This document shows positions 2,451 through 28,532 of a stretch of DNA of 64,000 nt, one piece after another. Within the stretch, counting starts at the first letter, position 1. Every line of letters starts with the position of its first letter. Made by a program: the position numbers and the translations under genes. The DNA is from Bradyrhizobium sp. LTSP849 (GTDB lineage: Bacteria > Pseudomonadota > Alphaproteobacteria > Rhizobiales > Xanthobacteraceae). Where the stretch lies: the NCBI RefSeq assembly GCF_000938255.1, contig NZ_JYMR01000053.1, positions 62,001 through 126,000 of the forward strand, written 5' to 3'. The notes under the pieces were generated by a model. It was not told the DNA's origin and searched no databases. It was given only the letters and a program-made list of their open reading frames with translations.

Positions 2451-2626
2451 TATAGGCGGTTCGGAACCGTTTTTCACCAGCCCCAAATGGGTTCGGACCG
2501 CCTTTGAGACCATGATCGCCGTGACGGGTACAGCCCGTTGCGACAATCAGCGGCCGGCCACTGCCCTTGGTCGGCCGCGACTTCTTTACGATTATCCGGC
2601 ACACTCGCCGGCTGAGGGTTCTGAGC

Positions 2627-3232
2627 ATGAGCACAGCACGACGACACACTTGGCAGTTGCTGGCGATGGCCCTGTCGGGGCTGCTCGTCGCAGCGCCGGC
2701 GCAGGCGCTCATCTCCACAGGCAGCACACCCACCGCCCTTCACGGCGAGACAGATGGTGACGCCGGGACGGATCGCCAAGCCGTCAGCCGCGAGATCGAG
2801 CGCTTCCGCAGTTCGTCGATCTCGATCAGCCAGGCCATGGCGATCGCCGAAGCCCGTCATGCCGGCGCCACGACCGCCGACGTCAGCTTCGATGGCGGCT
2901 CCGGCGTTCCGGTCTACCGGGTCAAGACCCTGCACAATGATCGGGTCTGGCGGCACACCATCAACGCTGCGACCGGCGAGCTGGTCGGCGGGGAAGCCGC
3001 CTTCCCTTTGGCCGAACTTGACGTGGAGGATCGCAGCAATCTTGCGGCCCTCGGCGCTATCCGGCATCGCCTTGCGGATGCAGTCCGGGTCGCCGAGCAC
3101 GCGGCATCCGGCAAGGCTATCAGCGGCGGACTCGTGCGCGAAGGCGGACGGCTGAATTTCGCGATCGTCGTCATCAGCGGCGACGACCTCAAGGAGGTCA
3201 TCCTCGAGCCACCGGGCGCCCGGACCAAATAG
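2627..3232 (+). CDS. Secreted PepSY-domain protein
   Basis: A 201-residue exported protein. The ATG at 2627 gives a clean signal peptide (charged start, hydrophobic core, cleavage near APAQA); the upstream TTG at 2567 would bury it. Two PepSY-type units follow: one near residues 65-125 (ISQAMAIAEARHAGA, then PVYRVKTLHNDRVWRHTINAATGE) and a second near 145-200 (ADAVRVAEHAASGKAI ending in a beta-rich strand). PepSY modules are often seen as inhibitory or folding domains in the periplasm. The partner is unknown. Operator O2 upstream links it to the TetR regulator and hence to the patatin-like lipoprotein. Confidence 0.75.
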   Translation: MSTARRHTWQLLAMALSGLLVAAPAQALISTGSTPTALHGETDGDAGTDRQAVSREIERFRSSSISISQAMAIAEARHAGATTADVSFDGGSGVPVYRVKTLHNDRVWRHTINAATGELVGGEAAFPLAELDVEDRSNLAALGAIRHRLADAVRVAEHAASGKAISGGLVREGGRLNFAIVVISGDDLKEVILEPPGARTK

Positions 3233-3260
3233 CGACGGCCACAATCCCGCCGAAAAGCCA

Positions 3261-3289
3261 TTGACGGCCGCAAAACTCTCCCGCATAAG
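3261..3289 (+). promoter_or_regulatory. Candidate promoter for the asd leader
   Basis: TTGACG (3261-3266), a 17-bp spacer, and CATAAG (3284-3289) resemble a housekeeping sigma promoter. The expected start point is near 3296, only about two bases before the ATG of the leader peptide, so the leader mRNA would be nearly leaderless. As I recall, the Sinorhizobium trpL leader is also leaderless. Confidence 0.55.
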
Positions 3290-3297
3290 TCGCCGCC

Positions 3298-3369
3298 ATG
3301 TTCACGACCACCAAACGCACGACCAAAACCACGAAGCCCGCAGGGGCCTCGGGAGGCGCGCGCGCGTAG
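3298..3369 (+). CDS. Thr/Lys-rich leader peptide upstream of asd (candidate attenuator peptide)
   Basis: A 23-codon ORF that begins MFTTTKRTTKTTKP and ends at TAG 3367-3369. Seven of codons 3-12 are threonine, and there are three lysine codons at 6, 10 and 13. The reading frame closes 27 bp before a strong intrinsic terminator (3397-3430), and asd follows 36 bp later. Thr and Lys are end products of the pathway that starts with Asd, so ribosome stalling on charged-tRNA shortage is a natural control. No clear Shine-Dalgarno precedes the ATG, which fits a leaderless transcript from the promoter at 3261. Translation is inferred, not shown. Confidence 0.65.
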   Translation: MFTTTKRTTKTTKPAGASGGARA

Positions 3370-3396
3370 TCGTAACGTAACGCATCAGCTTATCCG

Positions 3397-3430
3397 AAGC
3401 CCCGTCCTGAAAAGGTCCGGGGCTTTTTTA
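3397..3430 (+). terminator. Intrinsic terminator in the asd leader (attenuator)
   Basis: An 8-bp GC-rich stem, AAGCCCCG (3397-3404) with CGGGGCTT (3418-3425). The loop contains an inner CCT/AGG pairing closed by GAAA, and six T residues follow (3424-3429). It stands between the leader ORF and asd, so it would stop transcription before asd. A GGGGC at 3343-3347 inside the leader can pair with GCCCC at 3399-3403 and is a candidate antiterminator strand. Confidence 0.85.
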
Positions 3431-3465
3431 TTGCCCGCAACACTGCTCAAACAGAGGACAGACCC

Positions 3466-4491
3466 GTGAGCTACGAACCCGTTGTTGCCATCGCCGGCGT
3501 GACCGGCGCGGTCGGCGCCGAATTCATTGCCACCATGAACCGGCGCGCCTTCCCCGTCGGCAAGCTCAAGGCGCTGGCAAGCGCCCGCTCGGCCGGCAAG
3601 ACCATCGACTTCCGCGGCCAAAAGGTCGTCATCGAAGAGCTCACGGAGAAGTCGTTCGAGGGCGTCGATATCGCGCTGTTCTCGGCGGGTGCCGGCGTCT
3701 CGCGCAAGTTCTCCCCCGCCGCGGTGAAGGCCGGCGCGGTCGTGATCGACAATTCCTCCGCGTTCCGGATGGATCCGAACGTGCCCCTGGTGATCCCCGA
3801 GATCAACGCCAATCGCATCAGGGAGCACAAGGGCATCATCGCCGTTCCGAATTGTTCGGCGATCACGGCGCTGGTGCCGCTATGGCCGATCCATCGGCAC
3901 AACCGCATCAAGCGCCTGATCCTGTCGACCTACCAGGCGGCAAGCGGCGCGGGCGCCGCGGCGATGGAGGAGCTGGTGGAGTCGACCCGCGCCTATCTCG
4001 ACGGCCAGCCCTTCACGCCAAAGGTCATACCGCTTCCTTATGCCTTCAACGTCTTTAGCCACAACACGGACATCGATCCCGAGACCGGCTACAACGGCGA
4101 AGAAACCAAGGTCATCAAGGAAACCCGCAAGATTTTTGAGGATGAGACAATCGCCATTGGCGTGACCTGCGTTCGCGTGCCGGTGCTGCGCGCCCATTGC
4201 GAGGCCATCACCTTCGAATGCGAGAAGCCGATCAGCGAGGACCAGGTCCGCGCCATCATGGCGCAAGCCCCCGGCGTGAAGCTCGTCGACGACCGCGTGA
4301 AGAATTACTTCCCGATGCCGATCGACGCCTCGGGCCAGGACGACGTCCTGGTGGGCCGCATCCGCAAGGATCTCAGCGATCCCACGGGGCATTCGATCTC
4401 GATGTTCGTGGCGGCGGATCAGTTGCTCAAGGGCGCCGCGCTGAACGCGGTGCAGATCGCGGAGCTGTTGCCGCAGCGGGTCATGGCGTAA
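3466..4491 (+). CDS. asd: Aspartate-semialdehyde dehydrogenase
   Basis: A 341-residue enzyme that reduces aspartyl phosphate to aspartate semialdehyde with NADPH, the branch point to Lys, Thr, Met, Ile and diaminopimelate. The N-terminal GVTGAVG is the nucleotide-binding loop; the catalytic Cys is in VPNCSA (about 130), and the family's substrate-binding regions around DNSSAFRM and ITFECEKP are present. The GTG start at 3466 is supported by AGAGGA 10 bases upstream. It is monocistronic between the attenuator-like leader and a hairpin repeat. Length and motifs are normal. Confidence 0.95.
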   Translation: MSYEPVVAIAGVTGAVGAEFIATMNRRAFPVGKLKALASARSAGKTIDFRGQKVVIEELTEKSFEGVDIALFSAGAGVSRKFSPAAVKAGAVVIDNSSAFRMDPNVPLVIPEINANRIREHKGIIAVPNCSAITALVPLWPIHRHNRIKRLILSTYQAASGAGAAAMEELVESTRAYLDGQPFTPKVIPLPYAFNVFSHNTDIDPETGYNGEETKVIKETRKIFEDETIAIGVTCVRVPVLRAHCEAITFECEKPISEDQVRAIMAQAPGVKLVDDRVKNYFPMPIDASGQDDVLVGRIRKDLSDPTGHSISMFVAADQLLKGAALNAVQIAELLPQRVMA

Positions 4492-4508
4492 GCCATCGCG
4501 TCTGTCGA

Positions 4509-4646
4509 CCCGTCATCCTGAGGTGCGAGCTCTGTGGCGCAATTGCGCCGTGGAGCGAGCCTCGAAGGATGAACGGCCGGGATTCAGCAGCCGGGCCGTC
4601 GCCCTTCGAGGCTCGCCGAAGAGGCGAGCACCTCAGGGTGACGGTG
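4509..4646. repeat. Long-hairpin intergenic repeat between asd and queA
   Basis: Two nested inverted repeats. The outer arms (4510-4530 and 4624-4644; core CATCCTGAGGTGC) match at 18 of 21 positions. The inner 14-bp arms are perfect: GCGAGCCTCGAAGG at 4555-4568 and its complement at 4603-4616. The sequence resembles a dispersed palindromic repeat that I recall from Bradyrhizobium genomes. It lies between convergent asd and queA, where the RNA hairpin could act as a terminator from either side. The right arm supplies the TGA stop codon of queA (4633-4635). Confidence 0.75.
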
Positions 4647-5727
4647 ATAGAGTCCGCTCCCGCGCCCGAAACAGCAGGCACGCATCCCCATACGAATAGA
4701 ACCGGTAGCCTTCCGCGATCGCGTGCGCGTAGGCCTGCTGCATGGTCTCGAGCCCGGTGAATGCCGACACCAGCATGAACAGCGTCGACTTCGGCAGGTG
4801 GAAATTGGTCATCAAAATATCGACGGCGCGGAAGCGATAGCCGGGGGTGATGAAGATCGAGGTCTCGGCCGCGAACGGCCGGATGGTGCCGTCCTCGCTG
4901 GCTGCGCTTTCGAGCAGCCGCAATGATGTGGTGCCAACCGCGATGATGCGGCCCCCATTCTTCCGCGCGGTGTTGAGCGTCTCCGCCGTCTCGGCCGGGA
5001 TCATGCCCCACTCGGCATGCATCTTGTGGCCGTCGGTGTCGTCCACCTTCACCGGCAGGAACGTCCCTGCCCCGACATGCAGCGTGATGCGGTTGATGCC
5101 GACGCCGCAGTCGCGCAGCGCCTGCTCCAGCGCCGGCGTAAAGTGCAGGCCCGCAGTAGGAGCCGCGACCGCGCCTTCATTCGCCGCGAACATGGTCTGG
5201 TAGTCTGCGAGATCCTGCTCGTCAGGCGTGCGCTTGGAAGCGATGTAGGGCGGCAGCGGCGGGCTGCCGAGATCGGCGATGGCCTGGTCGAGCGCCGGGC
5301 CGTGGAACGAGAATGACAGCGTCACCTCGCCTTCACTGCCTTTGGCCTCGACCTCGGCATCGAGATGGCCGAGCAGGCAGACCTTGCCCTCATTGCCGAA
5401 GCGGATGCGGTCGCCGGCCACGAGCTTCTTCGCCGGCTTCACCAGCGCCTGCCAGCGCGAGCCGTCGAGGCGCTTGATCAGCGTCGCCTCGATCTTCGGC
5501 TCGGTCTCGCGGCCGATGCGGCGGCCCTTGAGCTGCGCTGAAATCACCTTGGTGTCGTTGACGACGAGCTGATCGCCCGCCTTCAGCCATTGCGGCAGGT
5601 CGGAGATGATTTGGTCGCGCAACGCACCGTTCTCTACGACCAGCATCTTCGCGGAGTCGCGCGGGTGCGCGGGGCGCAACGCGATGCGCTCGGCAGGCAG
5701 ATCGAAGTCGAAGAGATCGGTGCGCAC
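4633..5727 (-). CDS. queA: S-adenosylmethionine:tRNA ribosyltransferase-isomerase
   Basis: Transfers the ribosyl moiety of SAM to preQ1 in tRNA, making epoxyqueuosine. About 364 residues, full length, beginning with the standard [16 protein letters not shown]. Other family signatures are [28 protein letters not shown] and [15 protein letters not shown]. An upstream ATG at 5754 adds nine residues, but AAGGT lies 7-11 bases before the GTG at 5727, and family proteins begin at that point. It is the last gene of the coaD-ppiA-hypothetical-ppiB-queA run. The last few residues (SPSP) and the stop codon are encoded by the adjoining repeat, so the extreme C-terminus has probably been remodelled. Confidence 0.95.
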
Positions 5728-26453: not shown

Positions 26454-28532
26454 ATGGTGACAACGTATTTCAACTACAACTACATCACGAGCAATCTCAA
26501 GCAGTCGCTGACGCGGGTTGGACAGCAACCGGACGTCGCGCGGGAGGCCGCCTATTACAAAGCCAACATCGGCAAGGTGAAGACCGTCGACGATTTCATG
26601 AAGGATTATCGCCTTTATAGTTATGCGATGAAGGCATATGGCCTGGACGACATGACGTACGCCAAGGCTTTCATGAAAAAGGTGCTGCAGAGCGATCTCT
26701 CCGACTCCAACAGCTTTGTGAACAAATTGGTCGACAAGCGTTACCAGGAGTTTGCCGCGGCATTTTCCTTCAATGGCAGTGCAACGCCGGTTGCGCAATC
26801 GGAGAACCAGACCGATGAGATGATCGGTCTTTACACGTCGACCAAGACAAACCAGGTCAATGCACTTGCCGACGACTCGAACTACTACAGCGCCGAAATC
26901 GGCAACGTCAGCAGCGCAGACCAACTCCTAAACAACGACCGTCTTCGCAACTATGTCTATTCGGCATACGGGATCGACCAAAGCAAGTGGTCGCGTGACA
27001 CGATAAGCCAGGTCTTGCGCAGCGATCCGTCCGATCCAAGCAGCTACGTCAACACCACCTTCACGTCCCAGCTCAGCGGCCTCAATACAGCGCTCACCCA
27101 GGCGCAATCGGATATCAGCACCGCCAATTCGAACATTACCAATTATACGGCCCAACTCTCACAGCCGGGCGCCAACGTGCCTCAATTGCAGGTCCAGATC
27201 CTGGTCGAGAAATATCATCTCGATACGGCAACGAAGAGCGTTTCCAGCCTCAACGACCAGATCGCGACGATCGGCAATTTTGTAGACTTGGCCGGCGCGT
27301 TCGAGTTCCTGCCCGACGGGTCGCTTCCGGCAGGTACGCCTGCGCAGACTGCCGCAAATATAACGCTCACGAAGAAGCAGTTCGACGACAGCAAGGCCGA
27401 GGTCTACGCTGCGGCAAGCCCGATCTACGGAGCCGTGGCGATCAAGCAATTCAGGGCGGACCTCCTCAAGATCAATTCGGTCCAGGCGTTCGTGTCGACG
27501 CCGGGTGTGTATGATTTTGCGCTGGGCGCCGTCGGCCTCGATCCCGGACAGGTCTCGCAAGACACCGTCAAGAAAGTCCTCGAAAGCGATCTCAACGATC
27601 CAAAGAGCTACGTGTACACCCTCAAGGACAATCGATACGTTCAGCTCGCGCGCGCCTTCAACTTCGATGCAAAAGGCAATCTGACGACCCCCCTGGTCGC
27701 GCAGGACTCGGCCGAAGTCCTCCAGATTGCGAAAGACTACATCATTCAAGCAGTGAAGAGCGCGAGCACGGCAACCCCGCAGCAGCAGGCGGCAGTTCGG
27801 GCACAAGCCGCCAAGGACGCGACGGCCTATCAGGAGGCGATCGCAGGCATCGACAGTGTTTCCGATCTTCTTGCAAACAGGCCAATGGTCGATTTGATTC
27901 TCCTGGCCAAGGGTTTGGACCCCAGGAAGGTCAGCGACGATTTTCTCAAGAAGGTCTTCGCCTCCGACCTGAACAATCCAAAGAGCTTCGCGAACACGCA
28001 GAGCGATCCTCGCTTTGCCGAAATCGTGGCGTCGTTCAACTTCGACAGCAAGGGCAACGTCGCGCGCCTCCCGATGATGGGTCCGCAGAAGCGAGATCAA
28101 TTCCGGGAAACACAAGCGAACTATATCGAGCAAAGCCTGGAGCAGCAGCAAGGGGATACCAATCCCGGTGTGCGCCTGGCGCTATATTTCCAGCGAAAGG
28201 CGGGAGAAATCACCTCCGCATACGACATCCTTGCCGACAAGGCGCTTTCGGAGGTGTTCAGGACCACCTTCGATCTGCCTGATTCGATGGCTGCGATGCC
28301 GATCGATCAGCAAGCCAAGTTCGTGGACAAGATCCTCAAGGTCAAAGATCTGTCCGACCCCGCGAAGGTTGAAAAGCTCCTGAGCCGGTTCACCGCCATG
28401 TATGATCTCAAGAACAGCCAGAGCACCGATCAGTCTCCCGTGCTCGACCTCTTTCAAGGATCTGGTTCAACCATATCAGGGATAAGTGAATCGACGTTCC
28501 TGGCCATTGCCAAACTGCGCGCGCATTCCTGA
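26454..28532 (+). CDS. Orphan DUF1217 repeat protein
   Basis: A 692-residue protein built from five copies of a roughly 75-residue unit: A-Y-Y-x-x-N-I (or similar), then DFM-x-D-Y-R-L, a KAYGLD stretch, F-x-x-K-V-L-x-S-D-L-x-D-P-x-S-F and an R-Y-x-x-x-x-A-F-x-F ending. Repeats lie near residues 29-104, 145-205, 316-404, 457-545 and 570-650. Between the second and third is a helical linker rich in Q and N. DUF1217 proteins are frequently found near flagellar genes in alphaproteobacteria and may be secreted; no signal peptide is visible and no flagellar gene is in this window. The ATG has GAGGA upstream. Confidence 0.75.
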   Translation: MVTTYFNYNYITSNLKQSLTRVGQQPDVAREAAYYKANIGKVKTVDDFMKDYRLYSYAMKAYGLDDMTYAKAFMKKVLQSDLSDSNSFVNKLVDKRYQEFAAAFSFNGSATPVAQSENQTDEMIGLYTSTKTNQVNALADDSNYYSAEIGNVSSADQLLNNDRLRNYVYSAYGIDQSKWSRDTISQVLRSDPSDPSSYVNTTFTSQLSGLNTALTQAQSDISTANSNITNYTAQLSQPGANVPQLQVQILVEKYHLDTATKSVSSLNDQIATIGNFVDLAGAFEFLPDGSLPAGTPAQTAANITLTKKQFDDSKAEVYAAASPIYGAVAIKQFRADLLKINSVQAFVSTPGVYDFALGAVGLDPGQVSQDTVKKVLESDLNDPKSYVYTLKDNRYVQLARAFNFDAKGNLTTPLVAQDSAEVLQIAKDYIIQAVKSASTATPQQQAAVRAQAAKDATAYQEAIAGIDSVSDLLANRPMVDLILLAKGLDPRKVSDDFLKKVFASDLNNPKSFANTQSDPRFAEIVASFNFDSKGNVARLPMMGPQKRDQFRETQANYIEQSLEQQQGDTNPGVRLALYFQRKAGEITSAYDILADKALSEVFRTTFDLPDSMAAMPIDQQAKFVDKILKVKDLSDPAKVEKLLSRFTAMYDLKNSQSTDQSPVLDLFQGSGSTISGISESTFLAIAKLRAHS

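Follow-up and report, generated by a model that had tools for sequence, protein, structure and literature searches.

A candidate threonine/lysine attenuator in front of a second asd gene of Bradyrhizobium

Arrangement of the leader and of asd2

The window analysed here, a stretch of 64,000 nucleotides, belongs to a genome of 8.57 Mb in 57 contigs, and its nearest named asd relatives are those of Bradyrhizobium. An ORF with a PepSY domain match ended at position 3232, upstream of the leader and in the same direction as asd2 (3466..4491, + strand), which starts with GTG and encodes a second aspartate-semialdehyde dehydrogenase of 341 aa. Its product scored above the cut-offs of TIGR01296 and NF011456, and PF01118 and PF02774 also matched. 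Asd acts in the Thr/Lys/Met pathway and makes the precursor of the amino acids that the leader would sense. Between the PepSY gene and asd2, the hexamers TTGACG-17-CATAAG, an ATG, a Thr/Lys ORF, and a GC-rich hairpin followed by six Ts were arranged in this order on the + strand. The ordinary asd of the same genome was located at G000:C40:104355-105344 (L111) and is 45% identical to asd2. An earlier note on this DNA, made from the sequence alone, had named asd as the target of the leader; an asd gene does follow it, but this gene is the second, divergent copy, and the ordinary asd has no such leader here.

The leader ORF (3298..3369) consists of 23 codons, MFTTTKRTTKTTKPAGASGGARA*, and contains seven Thr and three Lys codons within codons 3-13 (3304..3336), base for base as the earlier note had read it. 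At the Thr frequency of asd2 (4.4%), the probability of at least seven Thr in 11 codons was ~9e-8. Four of the 1079 ORFs of at least eight codons on the two strands of the window reached a looser threshold for T/K clusters, and the leader ORF scored highest; the T/K-cluster ORF at 26860 was out of frame inside an ORF of 692 aa.

The putative promoter, also claimed before, was read at 3261..3289 (TTGACG at 3261-3266, a 17-nt spacer, and CATAAG at 3284-3289), and 8 nt separated CATAAG from the leader ATG. A simple sigma-70 promoter scan of 2900-3700 reported no site, because the sixth base of CATAAG is G where the scan demands T, and the evidence for the promoter is thus its conservation: TTGAC, 17 nt, and CATA were found in 110/110 asd loci including the window's own copy, with the complete CATAAG in 109. 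The spacing between the -10 element and the ATG was steady (8 nt in 105 loci, 7 nt in 4, and 10 nt in 1), which suggests a transcript that is leaderless or nearly so, with its start at or just before the AUG (3296..3298). Among the Bradyrhizobium mRNA starts reported in PMC4842269, 320 lay within 10 nt of the start codon and 192 exactly there.

The intrinsic terminator (3397..3429), for which sequence and folding agreed with the earlier description of a GC-rich stem and T run ahead of asd, is composed of the stem AAGCCCCG...CGGGGCTT from 3397 to ~3425 followed by T6 (3424-3429), and it ends 36 nt upstream of the asd2 start. A pairing of GGGGC (3343-3347) with GCCCC (3399-3403) had also been proposed. 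Both elements were read directly, but the predicted antiterminator was a long hairpin around the stop codon and not just these two. In the fold of the RNA 3' of a ribosome at codon 11, 3343-3347 paired with 3399-3403 and 3349-3367 paired with 3375-3397. The stop codon lies at the tip of this structure, whose energy in the window was -30.3 kcal/mol (RNA ending before the second terminator arm). The 5' strand of the antiterminator (3343..3367) is the second half of the ORF and starts with an invariant GGGG, while its 3' strand (3375..3403) is formed by the spacer after the stop codon and the 5' arm of the terminator. The antiterminator and the terminator are mutually exclusive, since the terminator needs 3397-3403.

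Conservation in Bradyrhizobium and the modelled switch

Of 195 genus genomes (own included), 188 matched at least part of 3200-3700 at the DNA level. The 110 asd loci compared were made up of 80 named loci and the 30 best DNA matches, with the window's own copy as L001; 77 of the named loci were titled Bradyrhizobium, and L058, L097, and L110 were titled otherwise. These loci, taken from the matches listed, are the closest to the window and not an even sample, and they contain 88 distinct leaders, of which near-identical relatives are not independent. The leader ORF had 23 codons in 109 loci and 22 in one, and the terminator was present in 110/110. The gap from the stop codon to the terminator ranged over 25-33 nt in all three phases, while the length of the ORF was nearly fixed. 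Loss of the ORF or of its codons in relatives, which the earlier note had named as grounds to abandon its reading, was looked for and not seen, as they were kept in all 110 loci.

Among the 55 distinct ORFs of 23 codons, Lys6 was AAA in 55/55, Lys10 was AAA in 54/55, and Thr11 was ACC in 55/55. The other Thr codons of the leader swapped among ACC, ACG, and ACT yet mostly stayed Thr (codon 8, for example, was ACG in 36, ACC in 17, and GCG in 2). The alignment over Bradyrhizobium that had been suggested as a check thus showed Thr identity mostly kept through synonymous change, together with a conserved stem. In the terminator, 99.3% of cells were paired over 10 pairs (88 sequences), and the hairpin with at least five Ts was kept in the 88 aligned distinct leaders. 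The antiterminator GGGG was invariant in 88/88. A GGVRA-like C-terminus of the peptide was conserved across the 110 loci as well; the conserved C-terminal codons are the 5' strand of the antiterminator, and the conserved end of the ORF is therefore explained. Within the genus, no covariation was found in the antiterminator core, where GGGG:CCCC never varied in the 88 leaders, and the fifth pair was missing in 16/88 in the one register that was counted. The sole two-sided change in the genus (C-G in 72 and G-C in 16) falls in a short hairpin that forms locally within the ORF; this hairpin would compete with the antiterminator and is not part of it, and the change may represent one event.

A palindromic repeat starting GCATGATC and containing GGAAAAGTGG was seen between the terminator and asd2 in 12 of the 80 named loci (L039, L046, L052, L057, L059, L074, L075, L077, L081, L087, L102, and L107). 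It was looked for in the window and was absent there.

From these features a mechanism can be proposed. The RNA would start at or just before the leader AUG, where a ribosome would initiate with no Shine-Dalgarno site. A shortage of charged tRNA-Thr or tRNA-Lys would hold the ribosome at one of the Thr/Lys codons, at codon 11 at the furthest, leaving 3343-3367 free to pair with 3375-3403, and with this antiterminator formed RNA polymerase would read into asd2. With an ample supply of both amino acids, the ribosome would arrive at codon 13 or the stop codon and cover the 5' strand of the antiterminator, whereupon the terminator (3397-3425) would form and the RNA would end near 3429, giving a product of about 132 nt.

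This scheme was examined by folding the leader with the ribosome placed at successive codons, the 3' edge of the ribosome being taken by convention as nucleotide 3c+10 for the A-site codon c. In RNA that ends before the second terminator arm, stalls at codons 3-11 gave a mean antiterminator (2:3) pairing of 0.77-0.92 over the 88 leaders; the value was 0.57 at codon 12 and 0.0 at codons 13, 14, and the stop. Once the complete terminator was included, its probability in the window was 0.95-1.0 at codons 3-9, fell to 0.09 at codon 10 and 0.01 at codon 11, and was back to 1.0 at codons 13, 14, and the stop, which placed the modelled switch point at Lys10-Thr11 (3325-3330). The means of the 88 leaders were 0.23 at codon 10 and 0.25 at codon 11. 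The value for the codon-11 stall in the window (0.007) was reached by 0/200 dinucleotide shuffles of the stretch between the Thr/Lys codons and the terminator, and a terminator probability below 0.5 at codon 11 was found in 68/88 leaders versus 18% of 870 shuffles, the other 20/88 being at 0.5 or above. Without a ribosome, the terminator probability was 1.0 in the window and 0.97 in the mean of 88, and the untranslated leader RNA should therefore terminate. At equilibrium the terminator of the window is favoured when the ribosome stalls at codons 3-9, so control at these positions needs the antiterminator to be formed first; in the model, stalls at early Thr codons would work only if co-transcriptional folding lets it do so. 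Pairs for a protective 1:2 hairpin (codons 13-17) could be drawn. This hairpin was rejected, as it was near zero in every stalled state; it appeared only in untranslated RNA (0.43 in the mean, 0.75 in the window), in which the terminator prevails (0.97).

Folding with and without a ribosome on the leader codons thus gave the terminator/antiterminator switch that attenuation requires. An ORF of regulatory codons, a pathway gene downstream, an intrinsic terminator, and an exclusive antiterminator set by the ribosome were all found at the locus by sequence and computation. The conservation and the mutually exclusive structures were computed, and we infer the translation, the start site, the termination, and the amino-acid response. 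The attenuation proposed in the earlier note is supported by comparison and folding, and 3261-3465 is very probably a Thr/Lys-responsive, ribosome-mediated transcription attenuator of asd2.

Leaders outside Bradyrhizobium and the competing readings

Two asd genes were present in each of nine same-genus genomes compared (own included), with asd2 85-91% identical and the ordinary asd 43-45% identical to the asd2 of the window. The order, class, and family concerned are taken here as Hyphomicrobiales, Alphaproteobacteria, and Xanthobacteraceae (GTDB names). In the class, asd2 was found in 22/289 genomes (own included, E 1e-95 or better), the other 21 at 57-78% identity, and further copies occurred in the family (G258, 81%) and in the order (G413, 62%). 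This sporadic presence in the class hints at transfer or repeated loss. The 23 loci outside Bradyrhizobium counted as asd2 are a set of 20 together with L112, L114, and L115, the last of which is only 49% identical and perhaps not asd2. A strict scan found the leader in 13 of the 23, inspection added four more, and none was seen in six. The four inspected leaders (L136, L137, L141, and L147) have the same GCCCCGCC hairpin and a shorter cluster, which the strict T/K threshold missed. Fewer Thr and relatively more Lys codons were observed in these four, as were Met codons in L137 and L147. Met likewise derives from the product of Asd, and the leaders with Met codons possibly sense Met too.

A covariance model of the Bradyrhizobium leader matched 8 of 115 class genomes (own included). 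Its three best other matches were upstream of asd2 in G530, G618, and G612; weaker ones were found in G582 (two) and G586, each on a contig different from that of asd2, and also in G594 and G529.

The antiterminator core varies too little inside Bradyrhizobium, and the pairing test was therefore moved to other genera. It used 13 leaders, namely that of the window plus 12 others that precede asd2 outside Bradyrhizobium (L145 was dropped, no hairpin being detected in it), and left out the constant GGGG anchor and the terminator arm. The strands paired with their own partners at -16.7 kcal/mol versus -13.6 kcal/mol with foreign ones, and 2/20000 permutations were as good (n=13). With seven Bradyrhizobium representatives included (n=19), 21/20000 permutations were as good. 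The own partner of these representatives ranked only 3rd to 13th of 19, which indicates that the signal comes from the other lineages; that of L114 ranked 16th and that of L146 19th. In the stall modelling, 11 of 13 leaders from different genomes switched, falling below 0.5 at some stall codon and returning to ~1.0 beyond it, and L112 and L146 did not. In 13/13 of these leaders, the final codon at which a stall still keeps the antiterminator free was Thr or Lys, and the last three permissive codons were Thr or Lys in 35/39 cases. Six Ts right after the stem were present only in L131, L134, and L112 of the 12 other asd2 leaders, and six of the 12 have no T run, which the model needs. An inverted repeat TCTCTC...GAGAGA was noticed just 5' of the asd2 start in L143, L144, L145, and L114, whose leaders are without a T run.

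Thr/Lys leaders were not confined to asd2, nor to Bradyrhizobium, the genus named in the earlier note, since they also precede asd in other genera. A Thr/Lys-rich sORF was found upstream of the ordinary asd in 41 of 67 order genomes outside the family (21 of 36 families); the loci are L122, L124, L127-L129, and others among L151-L210. On the antisense strand, no such match occurred in 119 upstream regions surveyed, and the T/K threshold was reached in 2 of 1190 dinucleotide-shuffled upstream regions. In the genome of the window and its family, no Thr/Lys leader was found before the ordinary asd, with one doubtful case of 29, and no Thr/Lys sORF was found in the hom, lysC, and best thrC loci of the window genome. 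In the ordinary-asd leaders the Thr/Lys cluster is often at the end of the ORF, and only 3/41 carry a T run. Single folds judged by eye gave a multi-stem RNA after the sORF, with a C-rich CUCUCCCC-like element whose partner can be either its neighbour or, close to the asd start codon, a G-rich GGGGAGAG-like element. No consensus structure emerged from RNAalifold on 39 of the 41 leaders (the two excluded ones have fewer than 90 nt behind the ORF), and the own-versus-foreign pairing was weaker than that of asd2 leaders (665/20000; 133/20000 with one per family, n=21). These features suggest that the output of the ordinary-asd leaders differs from that of the asd2 leader and is perhaps exerted on translation.

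What the attenuator senses was considered from its codons. It could sense threonine alone, with the Lys codons serving otherwise, e.g., to prevent structure in the first half of the RNA. Thr was more frequent than Lys in each of the Bradyrhizobium peptides listed (7 versus 3 in the window), and AAA codons are A-rich and unstructured. Yet Lys6 and Lys10 are almost without exception conserved, Lys10 sits at the modelled switch point, and Lys equals or exceeds Thr in the clusters of four distant asd2 leaders (L136, L137, L141, and L147, counted by eye). The codon choice also speaks against threonine alone, AAA dominating two leader sets and not the third: it accounted for 126/132 Lys codons in 56 distinct Bradyrhizobium leader ORFs and 79/101 in the 41 ordinary-asd leaders, and for 17/33 in 13 other asd2 leaders. 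The background against which these shares were set was asd2 of 80 loci, in which AAA made up 14 of 1485 Lys codons. Among the Bradyrhizobium leader Thr codons, 370/379 have G or C at the third position. The preference for AAA is read here as selection of a rare codon as a sensitive probe of lysine, with selection for unstructured RNA as the alternative. One tRNA-Lys(CUU) and one tRNA-Lys(UUU) were found among the 46 tRNA matches of the window genome, and the AAA pattern gives a sharp prediction on which tRNA-Lys is sensed. Sensing of threonine alone is on balance unlikely; that Thr and Lys are sensed jointly is likely, if less certain than attenuation itself.

The T runs bear on whether the hairpin ends transcription at all. 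Were the leader to control the translation of asd2 or the decay of its RNA, the hairpin would not be a working terminator, as its lack of a T run in six of 12 asd2 relatives and in 38/41 ordinary-asd leaders of other families might indicate. In Bradyrhizobium, however, hairpin and Ts form a textbook intrinsic terminator that is kept in all 88 distinct leaders, and we consider such a role very unlikely for the window.

A main product acting in trans, either the peptide or the RNA of about 132 nt that termination would yield, with attenuation in cis as a secondary effect, was given still less credence. The leaderless sORF and the terminated RNA do resemble rnTrpL as described in PMC7298713, and the GGVRA-like end of the peptide is conserved. 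The role of this end as an antiterminator strand nevertheless accounts for its conservation, and the peptide sequences diverge between genera outside Thr and Lys. In addition, only the window copy scored strongly in its genome, where no other convincing copy of the leader was found; the best other match (E 0.08) was in a locus without a T/K sORF.

Regulation by a ligand-binding riboswitch, for lysine or another ligand, is hardly to be expected here. The asd gene is riboswitch-regulated in some other bacteria, but the Rfam search of 2500-5500 gave nothing at gathering score, its five matches up to E 5 (best E 0.46) belonging to other families. The covariance models of the lysine riboswitch and the asd RNA motif, which we assume to have been among the Rfam models searched, gave no match in this region. 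Besides the terminator, the RNAalifold consensus added only two short helices in the ORF and one helix from the ORF end to the spacer. Finally, the idea that the terminator belongs to the PepSY gene, which does end shortly upstream (at 3232) in the same direction, and that the sORF is a meaningless chance product is refuted as far as sequence can, since the promoter, sORF, and terminator persist in the 6/80 loci that showed no PepSY gene on the upstream side and the leader and hairpin also precede asd2 in other genera.

Under the preferred reading of an attenuator for Thr and Lys, a wider picture can be drawn, to which we give an even chance. Hyphomicrobiales and other Alphaproteobacteria would have a largely undescribed joint Thr and Lys sensing for asd, the branch-point gene of the aspartate family, in which a single type of input, a Thr/Lys peptide with its lysines preferentially encoded by the rare AAA, serves two RNA outputs, the terminator/antiterminator of the sporadic asd2 and the conserved multi-stem RNA, mostly without a T run, of the ordinary asd; in the family of the window the ordinary asd would be without leader, and control would lie on the attenuated second copy in Bradyrhizobium.

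Comparison with known systems

No covariance-model match to the gammaproteobacterial threonine-operon leader or to the other leaders of Rfam was found. The Rfam search of the loci of 20 relatives gave nothing at gathering score, and 16 scanned ordinary-asd sORF loci gave no match at that level. In the open literature no description of an asd attenuator was found; the 2004 work of Vitreschak et al., reportedly a survey of proteobacterial attenuators, was outside the scope of this search, and priority is not proven. No asd leader was found in the main text, as far as covered, of PMC4842269, PMC5082802, PMC1273637, and PMC3766115. The only comparable sORF found was in PMC10117765.

This sORF, SEP5 of Sinorhizobium meliloti, is translated and has six Thr and three Lys codons near its 3' end (PMC10117765). 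It is located in the 5' UTR of a gene named there aspartate dehydrogenase, has been suggested to encode a leader peptide of the Thr/Lys pathway, and was reported to be conserved only in Sinorhizobium (PMC10117765). SEP5 resembles the leader of the window in its Thr and Lys codons and its suggested leader role, and differs in that its cluster is near the 3' end of the sORF and that no attenuator structure is given in the text covered (PMC10117765). By description only, the ordinary-asd leaders fit SEP5, whereas the gene of the window is the divergent asd2; if its gene is the ordinary asd, SEP5 belongs with the ordinary-asd leaders and not with the asd2 leader. The earlier note knew of no described Thr/Lys attenuator of asd in Bradyrhizobium, and none was found in the literature searched, but a Thr/Lys leader peptide had already been suggested in Sinorhizobium (PMC10117765).

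The rnTrpL/trpL leader of Sinorhizobium meliloti and its Bradyrhizobium counterpart are likewise attenuators in Hyphomicrobiales that yield a short terminated RNA (PMC7298713). In Sinorhizobium, the leader ORF is at the 5' end of this RNA, which coincides with the ATG of trpL, as predicted here for asd2 (PMC7298713). They differ from the asd2 leader in their Trp codons, in their target trpE(G), and in the functions in trans shown for rnTrpL (PMC7298713). According to a 2013 survey, amino-acid attenuators may have arisen in gammaproteobacteria with few transfers (PMC3766115); the Thr/Lys asd leaders, for which no Rfam 15 gathering match was obtained in the loci scanned, suggest that this picture of their origin is incomplete.

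Several consequences would follow from the proposed switch. The regulation of asd in rhizobia gains a concrete and testable switch, amino-acid attenuation would be extended to joint control by threonine and lysine, and the SEP5 sORF of Sinorhizobium would be explained as a member of a Hyphomicrobiales-wide family. The presence of two asd genes in Bradyrhizobium, one with the leader and one without, matters for metabolic engineering and amino-acid supply.

In its predicted mode of action, the asd2 leader would work as the classical amino-acid attenuators of thr, trp, and his do. The enterobacterial thr, trp, and his attenuators share with it an ORF of regulatory codons, an alternative antiterminator, an intrinsic terminator, and a pathway gene downstream, and the enterobacterial thr operon, with its Thr/Ile leader, also senses two amino acids. 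The leader described here differs from them in its pair of Thr and Lys, in its target, which is a second copy of asd, in its apparently leaderless ORF, and in its antiterminator, which is built from the second half of the ORF itself with the stop codon at the tip. As far as known, the pair of Thr and Lys on asd with a worked-out switch is new, as are the antiterminator centred on the stop codon, the attenuated second asd, and the breadth of Thr/Lys asd leaders.
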